From positions 1 through 32,864 of the forward strand of contig JAIEOZ010000106.1 in the NCBI GenBank assembly GCA_019750035.1: a stretch of 32,864 nt of DNA, written 5' to 3'. Source of the stretch: Alphaproteobacteria bacterium (GTDB lineage Bacteria; Pseudomonadota; Alphaproteobacteria; UBA9655). Both the position numbers and the translations under genes were made by a program. A model generated the notes under the pieces. The model was given only the letters and a program-made list of their open reading frames with translations, ran no database searches and was not told the origin of the DNA. Position 1 is the stretch's first letter. Every line of letters begins with the position of its first letter. This document shows, one piece after another, positions 8,337 to 27,065 of this stretch.

Positions 8337-10340
8337 ATGACCATATCGTTCTTTAAAAAACTCTACAAGTCGTTGTTAATCGGAGCCTGCTCTACGATGC
8401 CTCTTTCTGCTTTATCACCAGAGCAAGAAGTAAACGCATGCAAATCAGCCCTTTTAGCTCAAATCAACAAACAAAACAAACTCCCAGCTAAAGAGTGTCC
8501 TGTGAGCCAAAAGCTTGTCTATTGGCTAGGTATTTTAAGAAATCCAGAGCAGTTTACGCCCCAAGAACTTATTACATTTCTTAATAGCCACACACACTGG
8601 CCCACCCATCAAAAACTCTGTCAAAAAGCGGAAAAGGTCATTGCTACGCAAGGATCTTCTCAAGAAATTTTAACTTGGTTTGCAAAAAATCCTCCGCAAA
8701 CACCAATGGGCGTCAAGGCTTACGCCGAAGCGCTTTTATCTCAAAATGAGAAACAAAAAGCGGCTAAAGTTGTGGCTGAAGCTTGGAAATCTATGGAGTT
8801 CACACCAACTGAAGAAAAAAAATTTCTAAGTTCTTTGGGTCACTTTTTGCAAAAAAAGGATTATATCGCACGTCTTCAGTTTCTCTTATGGAATGAGAAC
8901 GTACCCGATGCGCAACGAATTCTCTCTCAGATTCCCGCCCCTATGCGCACCATTGCAGACGTTAGGATTGCTTTTATAACTGGCAAGTCAACAGCCCTCC
9001 AAAAGATGAAGGCCTTACCCGCTAAAGAGCAACAGGATGAAGGCCTGTTATATGAGACTGCAAAATGGCACAGAAAACAAAAGGACTTTCAACTAGCAGC
9101 AAACATCCTCATCAAGTCTTCCGAAAGTCCTGCCTTTGCCCCAAAATGGTGGAAAGAAAGAAACTATATAGCCCGTGAATTTATTGCGCTGGGTGAATAT
9201 CAAAAAGCTTATAAACTTCTTAAAAGTCATAAGCTACAATCTGGATGCGAAGATTTCTCCAACGCTGAGTTTTTATTAGGCTGGCTTTCTTTGCGATTTT
9301 TAGAAAAACCGAAAGAAGCTCAACAGCATTTTGCAACCCTTTTTGCAAACGTTGAAGGAGCGATTAGCAAAGCCCGAGGAGCTTATTGGCTAGGACGAAC
9401 CCAAGAAGCCTTGAACAATATTGCTCAAGCTGAGACTCACTATAAAAAAGCGGCACAGTATAAAGCCACTTATTATGGACAATTGGCAGCAGCCAAAGTT
9501 CGTGCCACTCCTTATCCTTCCTTAGCTTCAACCTCCAAAGCTTCAGCAAATGATAAAAAAAACTTTCATAACAAAGACATCGTAAAAGCAGCCTATATCC
9601 TTAAAAACCTGGGAAACCCTGCCAAGCATGAACTCAGCAAATTCCTTCTTCATATTGCAGATCAAGCCAAAACAAAGACGGAAGGAGAACTAGCCGTTCA
9701 GCTTGCTCACACTCTTTCCCCTTATGATGTCGTCTGGGCTGCTAAGAAGGCAGGATATAAAGAACCTATTGCCTTAGCAAAAGCTTATCCTGTACATACC
9801 ATCCCCAAAAAAGGGCAAAAAACTCCAGAAAAAGCCCTTGTGATGGCCGTTGCCTACCAGGAAAGCCGCTTTAATCCGACAGTGCAAAGCTCTGCCGGGG
9901 CTATGGGTCTTTTGCAGCTTATGCCACAAACCGCCGCTCAAGAAGCCAAGCTTTTAAAGATACCACATAACGAAAGCAAGCTTTTTGACCCCCAGCACAA
10001 CCTTCATTTAGGCACCTCCCACCTTTCAAAACTTTTAAACAATTTTGATTCTTCTTATATCTTAGCCATTGCGGCTTATAATGCAGGACCCACTCCTGTT
10101 GCAAGATGGTGCAAAGACTTTGGCGATCCTCGCGAAGGAACCATTGATATCATCGACTGGATTGAACTCATCCCTTATGCTGAAACAAGAAACTACGTCA
10201 TGAGAGTCCTCGAGACCATAACCATTTACCGAAGCCTTGAAGGCACACCTCAAAAAACCCTCCTTGATGATTTAACAAGGCGAGTTGTTATATCTACTGC
10301 GATTTCTTCCACAACTTATTCCACAGCGTTTGTCCGGTAA
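8337..10340 (+). CDS. slt: Soluble lytic murein transglycosylase (Slt70-like)
   Basis: A periplasmic enzyme that cleaves the MurNAc-GlcNAc bond with formation of 1,6-anhydro-muropeptides. It is 667 residues. The N-terminus (FFKKLYKSLLIGACSTMPLSA) is a Sec signal; a possible lipobox (IGAC) leaves open membrane anchoring, though the hydrophobic stretch before it is short. Residues about 50-440 are alpha-superhelical, with the Slt-type segment AYWLGRTQEALNNIAQAETH. The C-terminal SLT domain has ALVMAVAYQESRFNP with catalytic Glu near 509, then GAMGLLQLMPQTA, AIAAYNAGPTPV and IPYAETRNYVMRVLE. The start codon is 32 bp from the divergent dapA start, so promoters must overlap coding sequence. Confidence 0.94.
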   Translation: MTISFFKKLYKSLLIGACSTMPLSALSPEQEVNACKSALLAQINKQNKLPAKECPVSQKLVYWLGILRNPEQFTPQELITFLNSHTHWPTHQKLCQKAEKVIATQGSSQEILTWFAKNPPQTPMGVKAYAEALLSQNEKQKAAKVVAEAWKSMEFTPTEEKKFLSSLGHFLQKKDYIARLQFLLWNENVPDAQRILSQIPAPMRTIADVRIAFITGKSTALQKMKALPAKEQQDEGLLYETAKWHRKQKDFQLAANILIKSSESPAFAPKWWKERNYIAREFIALGEYQKAYKLLKSHKLQSGCEDFSNAEFLLGWLSLRFLEKPKEAQQHFATLFANVEGAISKARGAYWLGRTQEALNNIAQAETHYKKAAQYKATYYGQLAAAKVRATPYPSLASTSKASANDKKNFHNKDIVKAAYILKNLGNPAKHELSKFLLHIADQAKTKTEGELAVQLAHTLSPYDVVWAAKKAGYKEPIALAKAYPVHTIPKKGQKTPEKALVMAVAYQESRFNPTVQSSAGAMGLLQLMPQTAAQEAKLLKIPHNESKLFDPQHNLHLGTSHLSKLLNNFDSSYILAIAAYNAGPTPVARWCKDFGDPREGTIDIIDWIELIPYAETRNYVMRVLETITIYRSLEGTPQKTLLDDLTRRVVISTAISSTTYSTAFVR

Positions 10341-10379: not shown

Positions 10380-10724
10380 TCACTTTACTGTCCAACGGGT
10401 TACCCAATCTTCCATATCTTCAGCAGAAACTTCCTTTCCACTGAATAATTCTTTTCCAACCTGGTACAAGCGCTCAGCAAGCTTTATAGCTTCCTTTCCT
10501 TTGGCTTGAATTTGTGGGTTTTGCTGATGGTTTAGCAAGCCTTCTCCCATAAGATAAAGGTCAATTGCACGTAACTGCAATTCTTTCCCCATAGTAGATG
10601 CATAGGTTGAAACCATCTTCTTCATATGACCTTCCACCAACGTTTTTAAAGATGATGTGTCATCAGCTAAACACGGATTTACAATTATAGTAAAAAAAGC
10701 GATCATTAAGATAATTTTCTTCAT
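10380..10724 (-). CDS. Small secreted protein of unknown function
   Basis: 114 residues, not recognised. The N-terminus MKKIILMIAFFTIIVNPCLA is a clear Sec signal peptide, with likely cleavage before DDTSS. The mature part (about 94 residues) is predicted mostly helical and soluble, without cysteines or repeats. The start is well supported by GAGAGG eight bases upstream of the ATG. It is convergent with slt (39 bp between stops) and has a long non-coding stretch upstream. A periplasmic or secreted location is likely; function is unknown. Confidence 0.75.
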   Translation of the reverse strand: MKKIILMIAFFTIIVNPCLADDTSSLKTLVEGHMKKMVSTYASTMGKELQLRAIDLYLMGEGLLNHQQNPQIQAKGKEAIKLAERLYQVGKELFSGKEVSAEDMEDWVTRWTVK

Positions 10725-11216
10725 TATTTATACCTCTCAGTAATGCTATTTAATGTTAAAATAAAATTTCAAATTTTGAGACCTATTTTTTTAAAGGTGA
10801 GTCTCACTACCGGACAATTTTTTTTGAGATCTTTAGGTTGACAAAAACAAGAGATAAGAAAAAATACGGACCTCAATATCCTTCTCTTCCTATATCAAAA
10901 CCTATTACTGTGGGATAAATCAAGGCTAAAATGCTTTTTTCAAATGATTTTAGGTCTTATTATTTCCAGAAGTGTACAACAACATAAGTGCTCTTTTGGC
11001 TTTGAGGGAGCAAACAAGACTCTATCTGTCGTCGAATTCGAATCCATCGTCATCTCTGAGTCTTTTTTAACCATTTGAAAATTGGGGAAAGACGCCATAC
11101 GCAGTATCGCTTTGATGAGCATCTCCTTCCTCGCTCTGCTCTTTCCTCCCCTCACTATTAGGGTTCATCCTCTTTCAGCTTAAAAAATTGGCCAGTAGTG
11201 AGGTTGATCCCTCACG
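10725..11216. other. Gene-free stretch, possible gene remnant
   Basis: No supported gene. The minus-strand frame at 10940-11155 (71 residues) has no ribosome site and atypical composition. It does contain ASFPNFQMVK, which resembles ASFPGFQRLK in another non-functional-looking minus-strand frame near 12480-12520, so both may be decayed copies of one sequence. At 11197-11215 lies a perfect small hairpin, GTGAGG-TTGAT-CCCTCAC. Confidence 0.4.
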
Positions 11217-11456
11217 ACCCGTCACTTTGTATAACACGTTGAATAACAATAACAAAATACCATCAGTGCCATCCCCTTGACACGCGGGGATCCACACATG
11301 AGTTAAGCCTGAACAATGTGTGAATTATGAAATACAGTATTTTAAACGATCTCTTTTTTTCAAAGGGCGATTGGATCCCCGCGTATCAAGGGGATGACAC
11401 TGAGGAGACTGACGAGATTTATCTTTTCTTTCAATAGATTATAAAAAGTGACGGGT
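11217..11456. mobile_element. Nested inverted-repeat (MITE-like) element
   Basis: Outer arms ACCCGTCACTTTGTATAA (11217-11234) and TTATAAAAAGTGACGGGT (11439-11456) match at 17 of 18 positions. Inside them lies a second inverted repeat, 11263-11294 against 11372-11403, matching at 30 of 32 positions and containing CATCCCCTTGA and ACGCGGGGATCCA. There is no coding capacity. Small hairpins with a TTGAT loop flank both ends (near 11197 and 11459-11475). The inner arm resembles sequence at 22236-22250 and at the right edge of the window, so it belongs to a dispersed family. It sits 130 bp upstream of the Gly/His-rich gene. Confidence 0.75.
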
Positions 11457-11528
11457 ACTAAGGGTTGATCCTTTAAAAATTTTTAATTTTATTTTTTCCC
11501 TAAAAAAAACCCATTTTAACTTATTATT

Positions 11529-11586: not shown

Positions 11587-12027
11587 ATGAAAGGTCTTTT
11601 AACAACTACCGCTCTAGGAGCTGTCTTAATGCTCGGAACGAGTGGAATAGGGTATGCCACAGTCTTACAACCTGTCGCCCCCCATCAACAAGGTCAAAAC
11701 GTTCTGCTAGCCGCCCATGGTGGTGGCGGTCATGGTATTGGCCACGGCGGTATGGGTCATCATGGTGGCTATGCTCACGGCTATGGGCATCACGGCGGTT
11801 ACGGCTATGGGCACCACGGCGGTTACGGCTATGGGCACCACTACGGATATGGAGGACGCGGTTATGGCTATGGCGGTGGCTACGGTGGCTGGGGGTACGG
11901 TGGTCCCGGCTGGGGTGGCGGCTACTACGGGGGTCCCGGATGGGGTTATGACTATGATCCAGGAGTAGTTGTCCCAATTCCAGGTGGAACCGCTTGTGTA
12001 GGACCCTTGTGTCTGACGGTACCTTAG
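11587..12027 (+). CDS. Gly/His/Tyr-rich secreted protein
   Basis: 146 residues. MKGLLTTTALGAVLMLGTSG followed by IGYA is a Sec signal, with likely cleavage after Ala24. The mature protein begins TVLQPVAPHQQGQNVLLAA and then becomes low complexity: Gly, His and Tyr in GHHGGYGYG units, shifting to Gly/Trp/Tyr near 100-120. The tail PGGTACVGPLCLTVP has two cysteines. The His density suggests metal binding; the Gly/Tyr repeats suggest a structural or surface role, but neither is proved. The next gene (12112-12408) has a matching signal, a QP-QG-L-A-H motif and two late cysteines, so the pair looks like one diverged family. The ribosome site is strong and the gene lies just after a repeat element. 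Confidence 0.85.
   Translation: MKGLLTTTALGAVLMLGTSGIGYATVLQPVAPHQQGQNVLLAAHGGGGHGIGHGGMGHHGGYAHGYGHHGGYGYGHHGGYGYGHHYGYGGRGYGYGGGYGGWGYGGPGWGGGYYGGPGWGYDYDPGVVVPIPGGTACVGPLCLTVP
11777..11843 (+). repeat. 24-bp in-frame tandem repeat
   Basis: The unit starting ACGGCTATGGGCA is present about 2.8 times with a period of 24 bp and encodes Y/H-GYGHHGG. Copies at 11777-11800 and 11801-11824 differ at one base, which points to recent slippage-type expansion. Confidence 0.9.
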
Positions 12028-12053
12028 TCAATAGCTTAAAATAAATCAGATGT

Positions 12054-12079
12054 CTCGTCCCCTTGAAAGAGGGGACAAG
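12054..12079 (+). repeat. Intergenic hairpin between the two secreted-protein genes
   Basis: CTCGTCCCCT and AGGGGACAAG pair at 9 of 10 positions (G-U or mismatch at the third) around a 6-base loop. No T-run follows, so it is more likely an RNA-stabilising or attenuating hairpin than a full terminator. Confidence 0.55.
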
Positions 12080-12111
12080 ATTGAAGGGGTCACTATTTAA
12101 GAGAGGTAAGA

Positions 12112-12408
12112 ATGAAAAATTTTTTAGCAGCGTCCCTAGCGCTGGGAGCTTTCTTTACGCTTGAAGCAAATCAAGTCGTGAATGCTGTTGTCATCCAGCC
12201 CATACAGACTCCCTACCCTCAAGGACATATTTTACAGGCTGTTAGGCACTATCATTATTGGGGAACAACTTATAGTAACAATAATAATCCTGCTTATGGA
12301 GGATACAGCTCATCAACTGTACCCGTTGGATCTTCTACTCCCTCTTCTCCCTCGTTTAGCTGTGGAGGAGCCTCATCCTGTAGCAGTGATCTTAAGCTTT
12401 TTAAGTAA
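12112..12408 (+). CDS. Small Ser/Asn-rich secreted protein, paralogue-like to upstream gene
   Basis: 98 residues. MKNFLAASLALGAFFTLEAN plus QVVNA is a Sec signal with cleavage after Ala25. The mature start VVIQPIQTPYPQGHILQA aligns with TVLQPVAPHQQGQNVLLAA of the upstream protein, and both reach a His-containing segment afterwards. The middle is Asn/Ser/Tyr-rich (YSNNNNPAYGGYSSS). Near the end are two cysteines (CGGASSC). No domain is recognised. The ATG is preceded by GAGAGG with a short spacer. The 84-bp distance to the upstream gene, with only a hairpin between, suggests co-transcription. Confidence 0.8.
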   Translation: MKNFLAASLALGAFFTLEANQVVNAVVIQPIQTPYPQGHILQAVRHYHYWGTTYSNNNNPAYGGYSSSTVPVGSSTPSSPSFSCGGASSCSSDLKLFK

Positions 12409-12629: not shown

Positions 12630-12893
12630 ATGCAAATCGTTTTGCTTGTCATTCACTTGCTTATCACAGTGGCAATGATCGGTGTCATTCTGATTCAACG
12701 CAGTGAGGGGGGGATGGGCCTTGGTGGAGGAACCATGGGGGGTCTTATGACGACCCGTGGGTCTGCAAACTTACTGACGCATACAACGGCAATTTTGGCC
12801 GCTTGTTTTCTGGTGACAAGTTTGGCTTTAGCCATTTTAGCAAGTCACCAAAACCGGCCCTCTGCGATTTTAGATCAAATCTCTCAGAATTAA
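12630..12893 (+). CDS. secG: Preprotein translocase subunit SecG
   Basis: 87 residues, two membrane helices joined by the glycine-rich loop typical of SecG: MQIVLLVIHLLITVAMIGVI, then LIQRSEGGMGLGGG, then the second helix LTHTTAILAACFLVTSLALA. It is the small accessory subunit of the SecYEG channel that aids SecA-driven export. GGGAAAG lies upstream of the ATG. It opens the secG-pyrG-kdsA-eno block common in alphaproteobacteria, 65 bp before pyrG. Confidence 0.93.
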   Translation: MQIVLLVIHLLITVAMIGVILIQRSEGGMGLGGGTMGGLMTTRGSANLLTHTTAILAACFLVTSLALAILASHQNRPSAILDQISQN

Positions 12894-17400: not shown

Positions 17401-17973
17401 TTAGGGGCACTGATGTTTTAAAATATTACGTGTTGAAAATAATGTGTGACGCGGGGCAACAATGACTACTTTTGCCCCAATTTTTTTTGCTTGCTTTTTT
17501 TTCTGAACCAGATAGGGATCTCCCTGAGTCACAGCAATGACGTCGGGGCGGATGTTCTCTACAAGCTTCAGATAATCATTATACCCCCGCATAATCGGTA
17601 AGCAAACAATTTCATCGACCATATCCAAATGAGCTAAAATATGGGCGCGTTGAGCTTGGGTGTGCACAGGCTGCCGCTGTTTATATTGTTTAATAAAGGC
17701 ATCTGATTCAAGAGCAACCACCAAATAACCTCCCTCTCGCTTAGCCGCCTCTAAAAACTCAAGATGTCCATAATGGATGAGATCAAAACCACCCCCTACA
17801 AGGACAATTTTTTTATCAAAAGGATGTGCTGTCATATCATCGGGGAAAATTCCCATTACCGCTCGGTGTCCCAGAGAAGCATAAGGACAAGATCGCTGTT
17901 TAAAGGTCTCACACCCTGTAAGGACAACAAAACAAAGAAGACATAAAAATTTTGATTTTTGAAAAAAGTGCAT
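17401..17973 (-). CDS. Cytidylyltransferase-like protein with a lipoprotein signal peptide
   Basis: 190 residues. Residues about 54-185 are a nucleotidyltransferase fold: KIVLVGGGFDLIHYGHLEFL with the HxGH motif at 67-70, ALESDAFIKQYKQRQP, and FSTRNIL at 179-185 in the place of the (I/R)STS-type signature. The closest families are the TagD/HldE/GCT cytidylyl- and adenylyltransferases, which act in the cytoplasm. Yet the N-terminus (FLCLLCFVVLTGC) is a lipoprotein signal with lipobox LTGC and Cys21, so it would be exported and lipid-anchored. The start has AGGT six bases upstream and lies 17 bp after acnA. An internal start (Met40, Met47) would restore a cytoplasmic enzyme but lacks a good ribosome site. 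Substrate unknown. Confidence 0.75.
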   Translation of the reverse strand: MHFFQKSKFLCLLCFVVLTGCETFKQRSCPYASLGHRAVMGIFPDDMTAHPFDKKIVLVGGGFDLIHYGHLEFLEAAKREGGYLVVALESDAFIKQYKQRQPVHTQAQRAHILAHLDMVDEIVCLPIMRGYNDYLKLVENIRPDVIAVTQGDPYLVQKKKQAKKIGAKVVIVAPRHTLFSTRNILKHQCP

Positions 17974-25508: not shown

Positions 25509-25886
25509 TAAAATAGATATCTAATGTTAATGCTTGCTTTAGGAAAATTAAAATCACTTCTTCTTCACAAAAAAACGCGCAACCTTGCTTAAGACAGCGT
25601 TTGGATTGGAGCTATCCACATAGCAGAAGCTCGTTACACTCTAAAGGATAGCTTGAAAACCATAATCCACCCCCTCCACACCAACCTAACATAAAATCTA
25701 CATATTTTTTAGGTTGTCCCTTGAATTGAAAAGTGCTTTCATATTTTTAGTGAGTGGAAGGACTCTATTTTCATTTTTTGCAATCCAATATTTGTATAAA
25801 AAAGATTGCACGTGATGGTTTTTTCGTCTTACGCTTTTCCTAATTAATAAAAAAAGCCTTCGTATAAAAAAAGAAAGGATATGAGA
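25509..25886. other. Gene-free intergenic stretch with two hairpins
   Basis: No gene seen. AGCTATCC and GGATAGCT (25610-25617, 25646-25653) and CAACCTAA and TTAGGTTG (25682-25689, 25709-25716) are perfect 8-bp inverts. They lie upstream of the ELM1-like gene and could be leader structures or repeat remnants. Confidence 0.4.
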
Positions 25887-27065
25887 ATGAAGCAGTTACT
25901 CCTAAGTTTAAGTCTGTTTTTTTCGATGGGTGGACAGATTCAAGCCGTCAAACTCTATCTTCTGTCAAATCATGGTAATGCAGGAGATCATAATCAGACT
26001 TTAGGAATCGCCGCAGCCCTAGAAAAACTTTCGCACCAAAAGATTACCCTAAAAGATTTGGATACAAAGCTGATAACACCCCCCGAAATTAAAGCTGAAA
26101 TTGACAAAGACTTACTTCAGGAAAAAGTCATTGTCGTCGGATCCGGAGAAGGCGGCATTGAGGGAATCAAGGATTTATCCCCACAGCCCAATCTGACGAT
26201 CTGCTTAACGTCTCATATGTTTTTAAAAGAGTATCAAGACCCTGCCCTTTTACAAAAGGTTACTTTTATCGCTCTTCCGATTCATGAGACAATCTCAAAC
26301 CAAGAACTGCTCGGAGAAAAACTTATCAAAACAGTTGGGGTCTCTCATAATCGTCAGGCAGAAACAGCAAATAAAATTTATGAGGAATGGAAAAAAGACC
26401 TTCCCACTTGCAAAGAATATCTGGGCGTTGTTCTGGGGGGAGACGCTCCTACACCTTCAAAAGAAATCAAACTGTTCACAGAACAAGATGCCTCGAAACT
26501 CGCAGCGTACATTGCTCAACATGCTCAAAATGCCTGTATTCTTGTCTTGAATGGACCGCGAACAGGAAAATATGGAGCTGATAAAAAAGAAATTATGACC
26601 GTTCATCGCCAAGGCCAGTCGGATGCGATTACAAAATTCTTTCAACAAAGTCTTGCAGCTCAAGGGGTTAAGAACGTGAAGTTCTTTGACTTCCAACATA
26701 ACACTCCAGAAAACAAAGCCTGGGTTCTTCCTTATAATTCTTTTGATCTTGTTGTGGGAGCCGTGAAAGCAACCCATGGAAAAATGCTTATTCCCGGTGA
26801 ATCCACCTCTATGATTTCAGAAGCGATTGATGTGTTGCCTCCTGGTCATGTCCTTGTTTATGAAAATAACCCCATGAACGAAGTTCATAACGCTCATGTG
26901 ACAAGCGAACTGGCGGCAGGACGCATCGCTGTTTTGCAAAACTACCGTGACGTTCTCACGCCGAAAACAAATGCCGAAGGTCCAAAGCCAAGCGCCGCCC
27001 AAGTTATTGCCCAACAACTGTGGAAAACGGTCAATCAACCGGAAAGCGTCGGTGTTAAAAACTGA
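25887..27065 (+). CDS. ELM1/DUF1022-like protein with Sec signal peptide
   Basis: 392 residues from the ATG at 25887, which has AAAGGA seven bases upstream. The ATG at 25881 is too close to it. MKQLLLSLSLFFSMGGQIQA is a Sec signal, with cleavage before VKLYLL. The mature part resembles the ELM1/DUF1022 family (GT-B glycosyltransferase-like, named for plant mitochondrial fission factor ELM1): LLSNHGNAGDHNQTLGIAAA at the start, LGVVLGGDAP mid-protein, ILVLNGPRTG, and the late GESTSMISEAIDVLPPGHV in the place of the family's D-S-x-x-M-x-S-E-A motif. Bacterial family members usually lack a signal peptide, so export is unusual. Function and substrate are unknown. It stands alone. Confidence 0.65.
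   Translation: MKQLLLSLSLFFSMGGQIQAVKLYLLSNHGNAGDHNQTLGIAAALEKLSHQKITLKDLDTKLITPPEIKAEIDKDLLQEKVIVVGSGEGGIEGIKDLSPQPNLTICLTSHMFLKEYQDPALLQKVTFIALPIHETISNQELLGEKLIKTVGVSHNRQAETANKIYEEWKKDLPTCKEYLGVVLGGDAPTPSKEIKLFTEQDASKLAAYIAQHAQNACILVLNGPRTGKYGADKKEIMTVHRQGQSDAITKFFQQSLAAQGVKNVKFFDFQHNTPENKAWVLPYNSFDLVVGAVKATHGKMLIPGESTSMISEAIDVLPPGHVLVYENNPMNEVHNAHVTSELAAGRIAVLQNYRDVLTPKTNAEGPKPSAAQVIAQQLWKTVNQPESVGVKN

Follow-up and report, generated by a model that had tools for sequence, protein, structure and literature searches.

A genus-restricted family of Sec-exported, low-complexity proteins with a conserved N-terminus and a C-terminal cysteine pair

Do two small neighboring genes with matching exported starts and dissimilar low-complexity middles belong to one family, and what might such a family do? 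The question is raised by P0001 and P0002, which sit between slt and secG-pyrG in a window of 32,864 nucleotides, i.e., the whole stretch of DNA analyzed here, contig C325 of genome G000 (2.05 Mb, 93% complete). P0001 (11587-12027, + strand; 146 aa) is placed by the ORF list, by homologues and by its ortholog in G006, and consists of a signal (residues ~1-24), a linker (~25-44), a Gly/His/Tyr core (~45-125) and a C-terminal CVGPLC encoded at 11995-12012 (+). P0002 (12112-12408, +; 98 aa) has a signal (~1-25), a linker (~26-44), an Asn/Ser-rich core and a C-terminal CGGASSC. The Sec-type signals were assigned by inspection, and the aligned mature starts read TVLQPVAPHQQGQNVLLAA in P0001 and VVIQPIQTPYPQGHILQA in P0002. 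The secreted pair described in the first-pass annotation was thus found in full, including its positions, signals, matching mature starts and C-x4-C and C-x5-C tails.

The upstream neighbor is the lytic transglycosylase gene slt (8337-10340, +; SLT domain PF01464) and the downstream neighbor encodes a SecG-like protein (12630-12893, +). The intergenic region between P0001 and P0002 (12028-12111, +) holds a hairpin, GUCCCCUU...AGGGGAC, which is kept in G006 with another loop (z about -2.2 and -2.4); no T run follows it. Upstream of P0001, at about 11211-11462, lies a palindromic MITE-like element of ~250 bp with the ends ACCCGTCACTTT...AAAGTGACGGGT, and similar copies occur on C283, C295, C276 and C194 of G000, along with fragments. 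In G006, slt and P0001 are separated by only about 160 bp, and the longer stretch in G000 also carries a secreted-looking 114-aa ORF without a Pfam match (10380-10724, -). Elsewhere in the window, a cytidylyltransferase-like protein (17401-17973, -; PF01467, 3.1e-14) follows a lipoprotein-like signal, VVLTGCETF, and a mitochondrial fission ELM1-like protein (25881-27065, +; PF06258, 1.4e-8) starts with a Sec-like signal.

Known families did not account for the pair. Neither protein matched Pfam at E<=10, including DUF2282, PF07172 and the phytoplasma SVM signal model, or PHROGs at E<=1; NCBIfam gave no family for either, a PDB search with P0002 gave none, and an Rfam scan of the window returned nothing. 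A DNA match on C294, which was set aside, spans 37 bases only, and the protein read there (L002) starts lipoprotein-like.

Homology searches with P0001 and P0002 gave matching loci confined to the same genus, including a syntenic ortholog pair at the same place in G006. With a profile of 47 positions covering signal plus linker, family genes were found in 12 of the 15 genus genomes, in one to five copies each and mostly three to five. The first sweep matched 13 of 114 genomes, namely 12 genus members and one outsider whose match covers positions 1-30 only, and a second, partly overlapping sweep of 385 genomes of the class matched four genus members, along with five genomes whose short matches lie in the signal part. 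Full 47-position matches were found in genus members only, while the other alphaproteobacterial genomes, nearly 400 or more, gave at most short signal matches. Reading the ORFs of the 12 genomes yielded 39 curated members, of which seven are weak or have no linker (G014_c, G014_d, G000_C268, G006_C8, G008_b, G008_d and G001_c); the linker often ends in V/A-R/H-G-G. The first-pass annotation had proposed that a true family would show up in relatives as numerous small genes, often arranged in tandem, that share the frame but differ in their cores. This is the pattern seen across the genus, where further proteins with the N-terminal block are common, and none was found outside it.

The shared frame is also stronger than expected by chance. 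Leave-out HMMs, trained without P0001, P0002, their orthologues and the seven weak members, scored residues 1-48 of P0001 at 44.0-44.7 bits and of P0002 at 47.5-48.1 bits, compared with a maximum of 21.4 bits among 106 other signal-like ORFs, a small and heuristically chosen background. For residues 25-48, i.e., mature sequence, P0001 reached 16.0 bits and P0002 a modest 9.5 bits against a background maximum of 4.5. The top-scoring background ORFs seem mostly to be truncated reading frames of family members. Thus, the similarity exceeds that of random signal-bearing proteins, one of the two points on which the earlier proposal was to stand or fall. Signals and low-complexity tracts converge easily, and the Pfam GRP model PF07172 matches two of eight members, probably through composition, which would fit two unrelated secreted proteins with a common signal-peptide and low-complexity bias. 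Such a coincidence is nevertheless highly improbable, since the leave-out profiles recover both proteins in the mature segment too, the pair is syntenic in G006, and the restriction is to one genus. We are therefore nearly certain that P0001 and P0002 represent a true, genus-specific family that had not been named before.

The other end of the frame is the cysteine tail. Of the 39 members, 29 have exactly two cysteines in the mature protein and carry both among the final 18 residues, compared with 2 of 65 background ORFs. P0001 and P0002 have two mature cysteines each, at 10 and 5 residues from the end in P0001 and at 15 and 9 in P0002. C-x4-C of the CVGPxC type occurs in 15 of the listed members, among them G014_d, which is rich in Cys along its whole length; 14 members with the two-cysteine tail end in C-x4-C. 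Spacings of C-x8 to C-x13 are seen in 12 others, and G004 has members without cysteine. Histidine makes up a median of 7.2% of mature residues, reaching at least 5% in 27 of the 39 members, compared with a median of 2.6% and a maximum of 3.8% for 16 other window proteins. P0002 (4%), G009_a (0%) and G004_c (1%) are His-poor. Glycine accounts for up to 39% and Tyr plus Trp for up to 26% of mature residues. The AlphaFold2 model of P0001, built from a shallow alignment, is disordered (mean pLDDT 43.5) apart from the signal helix and a weak, low-confidence hairpin around CVGPLC. The family proteins are accordingly predicted to be mostly disordered, and the C-terminal cysteines probably form a small disulphide hairpin.

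Family genes form clusters of one to four, often in tandem and in several chromosomal contexts. The cluster neighbors are slt, gyrB with an L,D-transpeptidase, glyA/nrdR, mutY/dciA-like genes and a carbonic-anhydrase-like gene, all names other than slt coming from reading translations. The slt neighbor is common to loci of G000, G006, G013 and G001, and an L,D-transpeptidase-like gene adjoins those of G005, G009, G010 and G014. A Shine-Dalgarno sequence of at least 5 nt precedes 30 of the 39 members, compared with 40 of 216 ORFs that were given their best start. Hairpin-plus-T-run sequences, seen by eye and unscored, lie 3' of many family genes, and the only words shared by the upstream regions in a k-mer search were AT-rich, with no regulatory site.

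The two ends of the proteins are conserved while the genes change quickly. Between G000 and G006, P0002 is identical at 54 of 97 positions (dN 0.27, dS 0.62) and P0001 at 118 of 142 (dN 0.12), whereas the neighbors slt, secG, pyrG, kdsA and dapA show dN of 0.00-0.04. The SecG-like protein, our slow-evolving reference, is identical at all 87 of 87 positions, and P0002 diverges at about ten times the rate of its neighbors. Whole-gene dN/dS was 0.17-0.46 in the six ortholog pairs tested, with no sign of diversifying selection; one 15-codon linker segment gave 1.02 and is too short to weigh. The description of the family as rapidly diverging therefore holds for rate, but apparently not in the sense of an arms race. 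As dN/dS is below 1 overall, the family is fast-evolving yet under constraint, and constraint that is relaxed or compositional seems to account for its rate of divergence. The core of P0001 contains a GYGYGHHG-type tandem repeat (11777-11841, +; 24 bp x 2.7, 97% matches), which is 21 bp x 8.5 in the G006 ortholog. P0002 has no comparable tandem repeat, and the claim of a repeat-driven core is therefore limited to P0001. The family is an example of exported proteins with fixed ends around a core whose evolution follows composition and repeats.

ATP/ADP translocases point to host dependence, and the genus is apparently host-dependent because such translocases (TLC, PF03219) are found in 14 of its 15 genomes, compared with 0 of 14 control genomes. 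Together with the restriction to one genus, the varying copy number and the fast divergence, this could suggest host-directed secreted proteins, effector-like or antimicrobial, with a layout that may parallel the constant-signal, variable-mature families of phytoplasmas. We consider this unlikely, as the dN/dS values above give no indication of diversifying selection and Sec export in a Gram-negative cell delivers to the periplasm only.

A different lead comes from the genes found beside the clusters. MNIO (PF05114) is encoded in 11 of the 15 genus genomes and DUF2282 in 10, all ten also MNIO-positive. DUF2282 genes that are not MNIO-adjacent face family genes tail-to-tail in G000, G006, G001, G005, G009 and G010, and G014 shows the same arrangement except for an intervening small ORF. 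The closest neighbor in G001 is a 97-aa ORF resembling G008_b that stands outside the 39 members. The DUF2282 copies of G013 and G009:C81 have no family neighbor, and in G003 the contig ends at the neighbor position. The seven adjacencies represent about three chromosomal contexts and are therefore not seven independent events, and the neighbors are not co-transcribed, because they are convergent. Bufferins chelate excess copper, and a published class of Sec-signal precursors is named for its CxxxxC motif (PMC12452194). Copper restricts bacteria in amoeba phagosomes and helps amoebae to kill ingested bacteria (PMC11197307).

The MNIO genes might suggest that the family proteins are precursors modified by a BufB-like MNIO, with the signal as leader, a variable core and the C-terminal cysteines as modification sites. 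The frequency of MNIO in the genus is compatible with this, as are the 14 tails ending in C-x4-C, given the published CxxxxC class (PMC12452194), and the Cys-free members of G004, a genome without MNIO. However, Cys-tailed members persist in G012 (96% complete) and G008 (99%), where no MNIO hit was obtained, and the examined MNIO operons contain no family genes. Additionally, DUF2282 and MNIO-adjacent proteins have signals that group by themselves, scoring 39-51 bits on a profile trained on the same sequences, while family signals reach at most 7.7 bits. Because this group excludes the family, with the caveat of self-trained profiles, MNIO modification is very unlikely. In G000:C274 and relatives (L092, L093, L094, L098 and L099), the operons are of the MNIO-DUF2063-DoxX type, DUF2063 and DoxX being named by reading. 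The MNIO-adjacent small secreted proteins of G000 and G006 lack cysteine, and the DUF2282 gene is on another contig.

His enrichment and the DUF2282 neighborhood together make metal buffering our leading guess. As a tentative best explanation, the Sec-exported, mostly disordered and genus-specific family would buffer Cu/Zn-type metals through His and Cys. The conserved signal, presumably cleaved, and the ~20-residue linker would export the chain, while the core keeps its composition (Gly, His and Tyr/Trp, or Asn/Ser in P0002) and not its sequence. The core of P0001 expands and contracts through short tandem repeats, duplication gives rise to new copies, and strong ribosome-binding sites may ensure high expression. 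The resulting abundant periplasmic or envelope buffers could avert metal poisoning of a protist-associated bacterium alongside the neighboring bufferin-type (DUF2282) proteins. Several observations count against metal buffering: the family is also present in three genomes without a hit to either DUF2282 or MNIO (G004, G008 and G012), the DUF2282 neighbors are convergent and represent only about three chromosomal contexts, and the family genes share no upstream regulatory word beyond AT-rich ones. Furthermore, the His-poor members and the Cys-less G004 members mean that metal binding cannot be the only role shared by all.

The His-poor members are better accounted for by a structural or adhesive coat, i.e., Gly/Tyr/His-rich envelope or extracellular-matrix material cross-linked via the terminal cysteines and Tyr/Trp contacts, in which composition and not sequence is selected. 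The high Gly and Tyr plus Trp contents, repeats that turn over while composition stays, strong ribosome-binding sites and the adjoining peptidoglycan enzymes (SLT and L,D-transpeptidase-like) are all consistent with this. A surface-anchoring motif was not found, however, the enzymes may be neighbors by positional coincidence, and a coat leaves the DUF2282 neighborhood unexplained. We therefore regard a coat as the main rival, possible but doubtful. A bolder version of the metal-buffering reading, which we think improbable, is that these proteins make up a second class of exported metal-binding peptides, evolved independently and working beside the bufferins, with interchangeable low-complexity cores and possibly modified cysteines.

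Collectively, our results describe a gene family limited to one genus of apparently host-dependent alphaproteobacteria and without a match in the libraries searched here. For glycine/histidine-rich multigene families of intracellular bacteria, the literature offered no direct precedent. The exported proteins of protist-associated bacteria are little known, and the members provide concrete candidates with which a role in metal defence or in coating the surface of such bacteria can be tested.

Among known systems, phytoplasma SVM-type families combine a constant signal with a variable secreted part. The present family is similar in its constant N-terminus, variable mature part, multiple copies and occurrence in host-dependent bacteria. 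In contrast, its cores are of low complexity, its dN/dS is below 1, its Gram-negative Sec export ends in the periplasm, and P0001 and P0002 do not match the SVM signal model. Bufferins and CxxxxC precursors are, like the family, small Sec-signal proteins with conserved cysteines; DUF2282/Buf1 copies physically adjoin several family clusters, and many members share the C-x4-C of the CxxxxC precursor class of MNIO enzymes, which we compare by its published description. However, the Buf1 marker DUF2282 has four conserved cysteines, whereas P0001 and P0002 have two and do not match it, the bufferin signal group differs, and the family persists in genomes without MNIO hits. An MNIO precursor would be expected next to MNIO/DUF2063/DoxX, while the MNIO gene of G000 is on C274 and P0001 and P0002 are on C325. 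Finally, Pfam GRP (PF07172) also describes a signal followed by a Gly-rich core, and its best match among the eight aligned members is 1.9e-6. As P0001 and P0002 do not match it and the likeness is probably compositional, it is the linker and the terminal cysteine pair that mark the family described here.
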